Made by a program: the position numbers and the translations under genes
Source: a bacterium
GTDB taxonomy: Bacteria; Planctomycetota; Planctomycetia; Planctomycetales; Planctomycetaceae
Direction of reading: 5' to 3'
Assembly (NCBI GenBank): GCA_016125225.1
Contig: WGME01000017.1
Coordinates: 62,001 to 126,000, forward strand
Length of the DNA stretch: 64,000 nt
Part shown: positions 30,681 through 46,791 of the stretch, piece after piece
How the letters are laid out: each line of letters starts with the position of its first letter
How positions within the stretch are numbered: the first letter of the stretch is position 1
Notes under the pieces: generated by a model
Told to the model about the DNA's origin: nothing
The model's database searches: none
What the model saw: only the letters and a program-made list of their open reading frames with translations

Positions 30681-30795
30681 GGGCCGGGATGCTACCCCCG
30701 TCCGCACCTGAGAGCCAAATGTTTAGGGCTGCTTCTGTTAGGACCTGACCCGGTTCGCACGGCCTCACCGCAGAAAGAGGTAGCCTCTCGGCCCC
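30681..30795 (-). ncRNA. ffs: Signal recognition particle RNA, small bacterial type (4.5S)
   Basis: On the minus strand GGGCCGAGAGGCTACC at the 5' end pairs with GGTAGCATCCCGGCCC at the 3' end, and the apical part carries the SRP domain IV core: GGGTCAGGTCC, a loop TAAC, then AGAAGCAGCCC. GGTCAGG and AGCAGCC form the conserved asymmetric and symmetric loops that bind Ffh. The length of about 115 nt fits the short form without an Alu domain. The apical loop is not the usual GGAA/GNRA. The gene lies 40 bases after the NUDIX gene on the same strand; ends are estimated from pairing. Confidence 0.87.
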
Positions 30796-42943: not shown

Positions 42944-44491
42944 TCACACGCCGGGCTGTGCCACTTCGGTCGGGCACTCCGCAATCGCCTTGTTGAGCGC
43001 CTTAAGATAGGCCTGGGCACTGGCTTCGATGATGTCGGTACTCACCGCTTTGCCGTGATACCGCTTGCCCAACGCCATCAGTTCGACCAGAACTTCCCCC
43101 TGAGCATCTTTGCCGCCGGAGACGCTGCGGACCTGATAATCCTTGAGCGTGGCCGACACGCCGAGGATGCGTTCCATCGCCTTGCAGACGGCGTCAATCG
43201 GGCCATCTCCGATGGCGGCATCGCAGACGGTTTGCTCGTTTTCCCCGTCACGCAGTTCTACCGTGGCTGTGGGGATCGTGCCCGTGCCAGCAGCCACCTG
43301 GAACTTTACCAGATGCCAGCGGTCGGCGGAGACATTCACCCGGTTATCGATAAGGGCCACGATGTCCGCGTCGTAAATGTCCTTCTTTTTGTCGGCGAGG
43401 ATGATGAAGTCTTCAAACACTCGCTGGAAAGTGTTGTCATCAATGGTGAAACCCAATTCCTGCACACGGGTGCGGAAGGCGTGCCGACCGCTGTGCTTGC
43501 CGAGCACCAGATTCGAGCCGACATAACCGACGTCTTCCGACCGCATGATTTCGTAGGTCGACCGTTCCTGCAACACGCCATGCTGATGAATCCCGGCTTC
43601 ATGGGCAAACGCATTCTGCCCAACGATCGCTTTATTGCGTTGCACGATCATGCCGGTGATCGATGACACCAACCGACTCGTGCCGCACAGTTTCGGCGTA
43701 TTGATCTTCGTGCCCACTTTGTAATAGTCGCCTCGGGTCTTAAGAGCCATGACGACTTCTTCCAAGGCCGCATTGCCGGCCCGCTCGCCGAGACCGTTGA
43801 TCGTGCATTCGACCTGTCGGGCACCGGCTTCGACCGCAGCGAGACTGTTCGCGACCGCCAAGCCGAGATCGTTATGGCAGTGTGTGCTGATCACGGCCTT
43901 ATCGATGTTCGGCACATGATTCCGCAGATGCGTGATCACCTGGAAATAATGGTTCGGGGTGGCATAGCCGACGGTGTCGGGAATGTTGACCGTTGTCGCC
44001 CCGGCGGCAATCGCGTTCTCGACCACTTCGCACAAGAAATCCAGTTCGGTGCGGGCCGCATCTTCGGGGGAAAACTCGACGTTGTCCGTGAACTGCCGTG
44101 CGAGTTTCACGTGCTCGATCGTGGCTTTAACGATTTCTTCTTTCGCCATCTTCAACTTGAACTGGCGATGAATCGCACTGGTCGCAAGGAAGACGTGAAT
44201 CCGCCGTTTCTCCGCCCCGGCAAGAGCCGCCCCGGCTCGTTCGATGTCATCCTTACGGCAGCGGGCCAATCCGCAGATGGTGGTCCGTGTGCCGAATTTG
44301 TCGGCGATGGCCTTCACCGCTTCAAAGTCGCCTGGGGATGCGATGGGAAAACCCGCTTCGATGACGTCGACGCCGAGTTCCACCAGCGCGTCGGCGACGG
44401 TCAGCTTTTCAGCGACCGTCATGCTGCAACCGGGCGATTGCTCGCCATCGCGCAAGGTGGTGTCGAAGATGATCACATTGTCGGCGGACAT
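42944..44491 (-). CDS. leuA: 2-isopropylmalate synthase
   Basis: First committed enzyme of leucine synthesis: acetyl-CoA plus 2-ketoisovalerate to 2-isopropylmalate. 515 residues of the LeuA type 1 family: [13 protein letters not shown] at the start, [34 protein letters not shown] (metal-binding HxH), [19 protein letters not shown], and a C-terminal LeuA regulatory domain (about 385-515; [28 protein letters not shown]) that normally binds leucine for feedback inhibition. The ATG at 44491 has GGAG six bases upstream. It is preceded by a complete leader-peptide attenuator, so transcription is probably also leucine-controlled. Confidence 0.97.
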
Positions 44492-44503
44492 GGAAGGCTC
44501 CGA

Positions 44504-44582
44504 AATCAGGTGTCAGGCAATCGTTGTCAGGTCTCAGGTCAATGTGCCAGACAGGAGATTTCCTGATGCCTGACACCTGATT
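44504..44582. repeat. 15-bp perfect inverted repeat in the leuA 5' region
   Basis: AATCAGGTGTCAGGC (44504-44518) and GCCTGACACCTGATT (44568-44582) are perfect inverted repeats between the attenuator terminator and the leuA start. It resembles a dispersed palindrome and would fold in the leuA mRNA just upstream of the ribosome site. Confidence 0.75.
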
Positions 44583-44599
44583 CCTTCAACCCATCAAAA

Positions 44600-44634
44600 A
44601 CAAAAAACCCTGTGACCGAGGAGGTCACAGGGTT
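44600..44634 (-). terminator. Attenuator terminator of leuA
   Basis: On the minus strand AACCCTGTGACC (44634-44623) pairs with GGTCACAGGGTT (44617-44606), a perfect 12-bp stem with a five-base loop, followed by TTTTTTGTTTTT. It reads toward leuA and lies before its start codon, so it can only stop transcription of leuA itself. Its 5' arm also pairs with 44665-44676, the antiterminator. Confidence 0.88.
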
Positions 44635-44664
44635 GGAGTTGCATGGCATGCGACAACTGGACAG

Positions 44665-44676
44665 ACCCTCGACCTC
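44665..44676 (-). promoter_or_regulatory. Antiterminator segment of the leuA leader
   Basis: Minus-strand GAGGTCGAGGGT, beginning at the leader peptide stop codon, is complementary to ACCCTGTGACCTC (44633-44621): GAGGTC/GACCTC and AGGGT/ACCCT are perfect, joined by a G-U with one bulge. That pairing takes over the 5' arm of the terminator. A ribosome ending translation at the stop codon would cover this segment and let the terminator form. Confidence 0.8.
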
Positions 44677-44728
44677 ACCCGATGTGCGGGAGAAGTAGTA
44701 GTGCCAGCAGTCGCAGAGTTTGGTTCAT
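44675..44728 (-). CDS. leuL: leuA leader peptide
   Basis: A 17-residue frame, MNQTLRLLALLLLPHIG, with seven leucines. Codons 10-13 are CTA CTA CTT CTC, four leucines in a row including two CTA codons that look rare in this window. It lies between a sigma70-like promoter (44759-44787) and the attenuator terminator upstream of leuA. Stalling at the Leu run when charged tRNA-Leu is scarce would leave the antiterminator free. The ribosome site is weak (AAAGAA). No in-frame alternative makes sense as a protein. This is inference from structure, but every element of a classical leucine attenuator is present. Confidence 0.85.
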   Translation of the reverse strand: MNQTLRLLALLLLPHIG

Positions 44729-44758
44729 AGTTCTTTATTTCGGTGAAATCGTGCTGAA

Positions 44759-44787
44759 AGATTAGTCGCGAAATCTGCGGTCGTCAA
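44759..44787 (-). promoter_or_regulatory. Probable sigma70 promoter of the leuL-leuA transcript
   Basis: Minus strand: TTGACG (44787-44782), 17 bases, TAATCT (44764-44759). Transcription would start near 44752, about 24 bases before the leader peptide ATG, the right place for an attenuated operon. Confidence 0.7.
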
Positions 44788-44958
44788 GGGGTGACCCGAT
44801 TTCGCCGACAAATCGCCAACCGGGAAATCACTCACGGGACACCGCCGGGCGAACGGAAGTTCGCGAAATTCGATGGTGGTGGAAACGCTCAGTTGCGGCA
44901 TCCGGTGGATACCGCCACACTCGGAAGACCGGTAATCGCACCAAGTTCGGGCTGTTCG

Positions 44959-46791
44959 ATGTCGTCTGAGTTGCCGCCGTCTCCTTCTCCGCCGCTGAAA
45001 GGGCCCTGGATCTTCGCCGCGTGGCTGGCCGGGTTGGCGGTCTGCTGGTTTGGTCTGCAAGACGTCATCGCCGAGTGGGCCGGTGATGAGGCCCTGTTCG
45101 AGTTCGGCTGGCTGCTGTTTGCCGTGCCGGTGTGCTGGATCATCGGTCGCATGGTGCCATCGCGGCCTGTGACACCTCATATCTCATCGCGTCAGATGAC
45201 TCGGAGTGACTGGCTAGCGACCAGTACCGTCATGCTCGTCGCATTCGGGATGGCGGTCGTCACCGGGCAACGATTCACCGGTCTGCCGCCGGCTTATCAC
45301 GATGAATACAGCTACCTTTTTCTTGCCGAGTCGCTGCTGCACGGCCGCTGGACCTGGCCGAGTTCCGCCGCTCTACCGGAGTTGTTCACGCAGTATCACA
45401 TCCTCAACGAAGGGGTGATGGCGAGCCGGTATTACCCGGGGACCGCGTTCTGGATCGCACCATGGTTGGCGGTCGGACATCCGGAGTGGGGGCACTGGAC
45501 CGCCGGGGCTTTGTCGTGCGGGCTGCTCTACTGGATCGGGCGCGAACTTGATGGACGCCGCACGGGATTCATCGCGGCGATGGCGCTGGCGTTGTCACCG
45601 GGGCTGTCACTGTTCGGCAACCTGCTGCTGGCGCATCATCCCTGTCTGCTTGCCTTGATGATCTTCCTGTTCGGATTCATGCGCGGCCGCCGGACCGGAC
45701 ATCTCAGCGATTTCCTGATCAGCGGGTGTGGTCTCGGATGGGCATTGCTATGTCGCCCGGCAACCGCCGCGGGATTTGGCCTGCCGTTCGGAATCTGGTG
45801 TGCGGTGATGTCGGTTCGTGCGCTCCTTAGCCGCGAGGCGCCAGCCGAGCGCTGTGGCGGTCTCACCCAGCGCTCGGCATGCGCCTCGCGGCTAATAGGA
45901 GCGATCTGGTTGGGCTATGCTCTCCCGCTGCTTGCGGCCATCGCCATCGCCATCGCGTACAACCTCGCCGTGACCGGGAGTTGGCGGACATCGCCGTATC
46001 AACTCTATACCGACATCTATACCCCCCGGCATGTGTATGGACTCAATAATGTCACGCGGGGCGAGCAGCATCTGGGACCGCAGGTGCTCGAAGAGTACGA
46101 CCGCTGGGCCGAAAATCTGACGCCGACGCTGGCGAATCAGAACACGTTGAATCGGCTGCTGATCACCGCGCTATGGACCGTGGGCGTGCCGATTCTGCTG
46201 ATGACGGCCGTGCTGTCGCTGCCCTTGTTGTGGTCCCGACACAGTGGCTGGTTATGTGTGGCCTGGGCCATCGCCTCGATGCATGCGATCCATTGGCCCT
46301 ACTGGTATGTGGGCATCATGGGCTGGCATTATGTCTTCGAAACCGCGCCGCTTTGGTGTCTGCTGGTGGGGTATGTCACATCGGGCCTTGTCGAATATGG
46401 CCGTCTGCACGGTCAACCGGGGTTAAAGTATGCCTGGTACGGACTTTTTCCCTTGGCCTATGCGGGAATGTATGTTTCTGTTCCCGACATGTGGGAAGCC
46501 CGCTGGCAGCGCGGCCGCGAGTCGATTGCCTTTCCGCGCGAGCAGCACGCCGCGTTTCGGCAATGGATCGAATCAACGGTTGATGCGGGACCTGTACTGG
46601 TCCTCATCGACATGACCGACAGTAATCCGCATCTCGATCTGGTCATCAACCGTCCGGGTTTCGCGGACCGCATCTGGTACGGCCGCTATCGTCACGATCA
46701 GACCAATATACCAGAGGTCAAGACGGCATTCCCCGATCGCGCGATATACATCGTGCGTCCGGAATCGCATGAAATTATGCGAATCGACTGA
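44959..46791 (+). CDS. Membrane glycosyltransferase, GT39/ArnT-like
   Basis: 610 residues with roughly ten to twelve membrane segments. The first periplasmic loop carries PPAYHDEYSYLFLAESLLHGRW, the acidic D-E site of PMT/ArnT-type enzymes that use lipid-linked sugars. Later segments (GPLSCGLLYWIGREL-type and RPATAAGFGLPFGIW) fit the fold. ATG 44959 is chosen; an open frame extends upstream to 44791 but adds only charged leader sequence overlapping the leuA promoter region. Residues about 290-313 are encoded by a 69-nt palindromic repeat in frame. The sugar donor and acceptor are unknown. Confidence 0.82.
   Translation: MSSELPPSPSPPLKGPWIFAAWLAGLAVCWFGLQDVIAEWAGDEALFEFGWLLFAVPVCWIIGRMVPSRPVTPHISSRQMTRSDWLATSTVMLVAFGMAVVTGQRFTGLPPAYHDEYSYLFLAESLLHGRWTWPSSAALPELFTQYHILNEGVMASRYYPGTAFWIAPWLAVGHPEWGHWTAGALSCGLLYWIGRELDGRRTGFIAAMALALSPGLSLFGNLLLAHHPCLLALMIFLFGFMRGRRTGHLSDFLISGCGLGWALLCRPATAAGFGLPFGIWCAVMSVRALLSREAPAERCGGLTQRSACASRLIGAIWLGYALPLLAAIAIAIAYNLAVTGSWRTSPYQLYTDIYTPRHVYGLNNVTRGEQHLGPQVLEEYDRWAENLTPTLANQNTLNRLLITALWTVGVPILLMTAVLSLPLLWSRHSGWLCVAWAIASMHAIHWPYWYVGIMGWHYVFETAPLWCLLVGYVTSGLVEYGRLHGQPGLKYAWYGLFPLAYAGMYVSVPDMWEARWQRGRESIAFPREQHAAFRQWIESTVDAGPVLVLIDMTDSNPHLDLVINRPGFADRIWYGRYRHDQTNIPEVKTAFPDRAIYIVRPESHEIMRID
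45827..45895. repeat. 69-nt palindromic element inside the glycosyltransferase gene
   Basis: TTAGCCGCGAGGCG plus 14 bases (45827-45854) pairs with 45868-45895 at 26 of 28 positions around a 13-base loop. The unit is exactly 23 codons and keeps the frame (SREAPAERCGG, TQRSACASRLI). A half copy is at 33302-33328. Confidence 0.85.

Follow-up and report, generated by a model that had tools for sequence, protein, structure and literature searches.

A candidate leader-peptide attenuator of leucine synthesis upstream of leuA in Planctomycetaceae

In the leader of the trp operon, trpL, attenuation follows a three-way logic in which element 1 can pair with 2, 2 with 3 and 3 with 4 (1:2, 2:3, 3:4), with the stop codon of the leader peptide adjoining element 2. 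The leuL leader of E. coli and Salmonella is built from a short peptide, a leucine run with rare CUA codons, an antiterminator and a terminator, and its target is leuA, which encodes the first enzyme committed to making leucine. For Salmonella leu, changing CUA to CUG is reported to reduce sensitivity (Carter et al. 1986, as cited in PMC1183508), and theory developed for E. coli names CUA as the most suitable control codon, with UUA or UUG being worse (PMC1183508). A Leu-rich attenuator peptide has also been described as attenuating branched-chain amino acid synthesis in the Firmicute Staphylococcus aureus (PMC5794164). The LEU element of Actinobacteria likewise lies upstream of leuA and involves Leu codons, but it has a pseudoknot, the base stem of which pairs Leu codons with the Shine-Dalgarno box, and classical attenuation is considered unlikely for it (PMC1262725). 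More broadly, a 2010 survey knew peptide leader systems from Proteobacteria and Actinobacteria only and added the Firmicutes (PMC2965389), while Planctomycetes are named in PMC4833913 just for re-initiation.

Here we describe a leader upstream of leuA in a member of the Planctomycetaceae (GCA_016125225.1, contig WGME01000017.1, positions 62,001 to 126,000; this whole stretch of 64,000 nt is referred to as the window). Very probably, it acts as a ribosome-mediated transcription attenuator through which leuA responds to charged leucyl-tRNA. This reading draws on computational results that show the full set of elements, how they are conserved, that they exclude one another in folding, and the codon bias of the leader. 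The leader would have its logic in common with the trp attenuator, from which it differs in amino acid and sequence. With leuL it shares the short peptide, the leucine run with CUA codons, the antiterminator, the terminator and the target gene; on the other hand, it has no Rfam leader match, its stop codon lies within the antiterminator arm in many relatives, and it belongs to a different phylum. It differs from the actinobacterial LEU element with its pseudoknot, the base stem of which joins Leu codons to the Shine-Dalgarno box. The features of the locus are:

44759..44787, minus strand: promoter-like site TTGACG-17-TAATCT (8/12 consensus bases)
44675..44728, minus strand: leader peptide ORF, MNQTLRLLALLLLPHIG, stop TGA (direct sequence reading)
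44690..44701, minus strand: putative control codons CTA CTA CTT CTC, Leu10-Leu13 (ribosome-position folding)
44687..44695, minus strand: protector 5' arm (element 1), CTTCTCCCG (pairs with 44681-44673 in folding)
44673..44681, minus strand: protector 3' arm, CGGGTGAGG, overlapping the stop codon and element 2 (folding)
44665..44676, minus strand: antiterminator 5' arm (element 2), GAGGTCGAGGGT (folding; counterpart in relatives)
44621..44634, minus strand: element 3, AACCCTGTGACCTC, both antiterminator 3' arm and terminator 5' arm (folding, pairing)
44606..44617, minus strand: terminator 3' arm (element 4), GGTCACAGGGTT (12 perfect pairs; covariation in relatives)
44596..44605, minus strand: T-run after the terminator, TTTTGTTTTT (terminator scan)
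42944..44491, minus strand: leuA, 2-isopropylmalate synthase, the putatively regulated gene (NF002086 and TIGR00973 scores)

The downstream gene is a genuine 2-isopropylmalate synthase gene, as its product scores above the curated cut-offs of two NCBIfam profiles (764 bits against 532 for NF002086, and 718.5 bits against 598.7 for TIGR00973). The gene nearest upstream of the leader is divergent (plus strand, 44791-46791) and the next gene on the minus strand, proB, lies about 2 kb away; the terminator is therefore not the end of another gene. The interval between the terminator and leuA contains a large palindrome (44504-44582) with perfect arms of 16 nt (AATCAGGTGTCAGGCA and TGCCTGACACCTGATT) and more inverted repeats inside, and has the appearance of an inserted repeat element. 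In some relatives, unrelated repeats occupy its position, for example GGATTTTGGATT in locus L008.

The leader ORF extends from an ATG at 44728 to a TGA at 44677-44675, comprises 17 codons and, on direct reading of the sequence, has no clear Shine-Dalgarno sequence. The first-pass annotation had described a leader peptide with seven leucines and a CTA-CTA-CTT-CTC run, and re-reading agrees: 7 of the 17 residues are Leu, encoded by CTG, CTG, CTG, CTA, CTA, CTT and CTC, the last four consecutively. Leader Leu codons are shifted towards the rare CTA, which accounts for 130 of 646 of them (20%) in related loci compared with 8 of 1147 (0.7%) in the leuA genes, while TTG and TTA together make up 8% in the leaders and 20% in leuA; across the long ORFs of the window, 48 of 1664 Leu codons are CTA. 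Part of this bias may stem from RNA pairing in the Leu region. Among relatives, the main Leu codons are constant at positions 1 and 2 and variable at position 3 only, which would be the mark of a translated frame, and the peptides are otherwise very different. One frequent peptide ending, GRS, corresponds to the antiterminator sequence AGGTCTTAG read in frame; given that the stop codon sits inside element 2 (AGG TCT TAG) in many relatives, this ending would be imposed by the RNA.

The intrinsic terminator (44634-44606) has a perfect 12-bp stem formed by 44634-44623 and 44617-44606, a loop of 5 and the T-run behind it, and the order and coordinates first proposed for the locus (antiterminator, 12-bp terminator with T-run, leuA) are right to within a base. 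The TGA overlaps element 2, which is complementary to 44634-44621, so that the antiterminator would capture the 5' arm of the terminator as originally suggested; the two structures are mutually exclusive in folding. In free RNA with no ribosome, the terminator forms with P 0.97 and the protector has a mean pair probability of 0.88. The terminator likewise has P 0.97 when the A site of the ribosome is on the stop codon, while a ribosome whose A site is at Leu12 or Leu13 gives the antiterminator P 0.92 or 0.74, respectively, at equilibrium. In a transcript that still lacks the terminator 3' arm, a ribosome at Leu10-13 gives an antiterminator P of about 0.99 and one at the stop a P of 0.00. Modelled with a ribosome at Leu, at the stop or absent, the folding thus gives the outcomes of classical attenuation, and the expectation that a stall at Leu would yield the antiterminator and a ribosome at the stop the terminator is borne out by the model. 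What the first-pass annotation had overlooked is a third predicted pairing, the protector hairpin (44695-44687/44681-44673), which would favour termination without a ribosome.

We infer that transcription starts from the upstream site, that the ORF is translated, that the two processes are coupled and that the leader responds to leucine, and propose the following mechanism. A ribosome would translate the 17-codon ORF as RNA polymerase makes the leader RNA. Given ample leucine, the ribosome would proceed to the stop codon and cover element 2, leaving elements 3 and 4 to form the terminator and thereby turning leuA off. When charged tRNA-Leu is scarce, the ribosome would instead stall at the CTA-CTA-CTT-CTC run, opening the protector hairpin and freeing element 2, which would then pair with element 3, block the terminator and let leuA be transcribed. 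If no ribosome is present, element 2 would be hidden by the protector hairpin and transcription would end. At the sequence level, the locus has what an attenuator calls for: a run of codons for its own amino acid, an intrinsic terminator, an antiterminator that excludes it, and a stop codon at which a ribosome would mask element 2, as one at the control codons would not.

How readily such an arrangement arises by chance can be judged from a strict test, which accepts an ORF of at most 30 aa with at least 5 Leu, a minimum of 30% Leu and an end 15-60 nt before an intrinsic terminator. Across the two strands of the 64-kb window, nothing but the leader site passes. Of 114 loci upstream of leuA within the family, 81 do, compared with 9 of 2100 shuffles in which the sequence upstream of each terminator was randomised with dinucleotides kept. 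Applied to the other 19 amino acids, the equivalent test gave a single match with N, a single match with S, and no others. Loci that fail often have a shorter or longer leader, an imperfect T-run (as in L008) or a leader 0.9 kb upstream (as in G065).

The predicted switch is also commoner in relatives than expected by chance. A clear cotranscriptional switch, defined as a difference (Leu minus stop) above 0.4 in the transcript before the terminator is complete, was seen in 65% of 102 family leaders, whereas shuffles showed it in 13% of 510 cases (by rank-sum test, p is about 6e-29, a value that ignores kinship among leaders); full-length equilibrium folding gave a switch in 25% of relatives and 2% of shuffles. 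Equilibrium folding of complete leaders proved a poor test, the pre-terminator transcript being the one that discriminates. Since the completed terminator dominates at equilibrium in most relatives, the model relies on folding during transcription, a dependence that is usual for known attenuators.

We aligned 38 leaders from relatives, excluding the window's own, and obtained the consensus CTn...CTnCTnAGCCTn...GGGAGGTCTTAGGTT...AACCCTGAGACC...GGTCTCAGGGTTTTTTT. In the terminator, 95.3% of cells are paired and 30 are compensatory; 0 of 500 shuffles match either figure. For antiterminator pairing 2:3, 92.1% of cells are paired compared with 91.1% in shuffles; because the antiterminator hardly varies, its covariation is only weak evidence. 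In a wider set of 110 loci, whose arms vary in sequence from clade to clade, the median duplex energy of pairing 2:3 is -17.4 kcal/mol, and its median z relative to shuffles is -2.5. A common 1:2 pairing across relatives (75.6% of cells paired) is plausible but not convincing. No conserved core is present between elements 2 and 3 in this alignment. The Leu-rich frame and the competing hairpins, on whose conservation the first-pass annotation had made its reading depend, are both kept in relatives.

A covariance model built from the same 38 leaders, without the window site, recovers the leader as the one clear match in its 6.35-Mb genome, with 51.2 bits (E 8e-8), followed by a second match of 19.6 bits (E 1). 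Of 61 family genomes, 57 contain a match at E <= 0.1; strong matches occur once per genome, near leuA. This placement bears on an alternative that we consider very improbable: that the terminator is a constitutive brake or a source of small RNA, with a Leu-rich ORF that is either a coincidence or the gene of a small hydrophobic protein in its own right. Terminators before genes can indeed be constitutive, and short Leu-rich ORFs resemble membrane peptides, peptide composition being the one result that speaks for this alternative. Against it, the peptides diverge in everything save Leu, their common ending GRS is AGGTCTTAG in frame, and strong matches occur once per genome, at leuA. A bias towards rare codons, a position before a terminator and pairing with an antiterminator would not be expected of a protein gene.

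We give even less credence to a ligand-binding riboswitch, T-box or protein-binding leader that would drive the terminator with the peptide being secondary. Riboswitches, T-boxes and protein-binding leaders do employ antiterminator/terminator pairs as well, but here it is the Leu codons and the stop position that are conserved, and not a core between elements 2 and 3. Nor is there any relevant match within 44400-44900, even at E <= 10, to the leader, T-box and riboswitch families of Rfam, which presumably include the proteobacterial Leu leader; the search of this region for a known leader, T-box or riboswitch gave chance matches alone. Some other translation-based route, such as termination by Rho or re-initiation at the leader stop, is just as improbable: short-distance leader genes with proposed re-initiation have been reported in Planctomycetes generally (PMC4833913), but the leader has an intrinsic terminator that covaries, and the 183 bases from its stop to the leuA start are far over the 10-13 bp of that proposal (PMC4833913).

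The attenuator would require transcription to start upstream of the leader. What had been annotated as a sigma70 promoter stands as far as its hexamers go (TTGACG at 44787-44782 and TAATCT at 44764-44759, with a spacer of 17), but the match to the consensus is weak (8/12) and the site is absent from the output of a stricter promoter scan. In relatives, promoter-like sites are clearly enriched upstream of the leader, where 63% score at least 9 compared with 7% of shuffles, whereas in the interval between terminator and leuA the figure is 3%, with the same mean as shuffles and no enrichment. As far as sequence can tell, this gives no sign of a transcription start downstream of the terminator.

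The device appears to be limited to leuA among the genes examined, as no comparable leader and terminator was found in the window's genome near ilvB, an ilvB-like gene, two chorismate-binding genes or leuC. The closest named relatives of the LeuA protein come from Schlesneria, in the family Planctomycetaceae. Leaders with a Leu run and a terminator also precede leuA in other planctomycete groups (L025-L028, L032, L038, L058, L059). In other families of the phylum, a terminator is preceded at 15 of 40 loci by a leader in which a stretch of 10 residues includes at least 5 Leu; one further leader among these 40 (L222) was recognised by eye, and there are many absences. The leader would hence be widespread yet patchy in the deep branches of the phylum. 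Proteobacterial leuA genes that we scanned had no such leader, and neither did the scanned non-planctomycete leuA loci with a similar LeuA, except L029 and L034. L034, which has the leader, is labelled just 'bacterium'. Among the named loci scanned, L029, on a contig labelled Vicinamibacteria, is the one leuA with a label from outside Planctomycetota to have a comparable leader and terminator; it represents either a mis-binned contig or horizontal transfer.

We also observed tandem leucine attenuators before leuA, with two Leu-rich leader ORFs that each have their own terminator. This arrangement is present in five genomes of one deep planctomycete family (L258, identical to L264, in G230; L218 in G218; L263 in G436; L267 in G203; and L268 in G440, the second units of L267 and L268 having been identified by eye). 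A genome from another family shares it (L223 in G252). To our knowledge, leader-peptide attenuators paired in tandem for a single amino acid have not been described.

We found no planctomycete attenuator in the open-access literature, though the survey by Lopatovskaya et al. 2010 (Mol Biol 44:128), reportedly a broad comparative treatment of attenuation, could hold one. While the mechanism is already known, its presence in this phylum, the fused stop-antiterminator element and the doubling in series look new. Overall, the leader would be a well-supported classical leucine attenuator, and one that is new to the phylum as far as the open-access literature shows. It is possible, though here we are tentative and lean slightly the other way, that it represents an old leuA-specific regulator of Planctomycetota which arose independently of the proteobacterial one, converged on the same rare CUA control codons, had its stop and antiterminator fused in many lineages and was doubled in series in one deep family.

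If correct, these predictions would bring peptide-leader attenuation, which has been described mainly in Proteobacteria, Actinobacteria and Firmicutes, into a phylum about whose gene regulation little is known. The unusual cell plan of planctomycetes once cast doubt on coupled transcription and translation, and a true attenuator would mean that RNA polymerase and ribosome are coupled at leuA. Furthermore, the selective-charging explanation of control codons would be put to an independent test by the enrichment of CUA and the avoidance of UUA and UUG, the pattern that theory proposes for E. coli.

Elsewhere in the window, positions 30688-30784 on the minus strand match the bacterial small SRP RNA (Rfam RF00169), barely over the gathering score.
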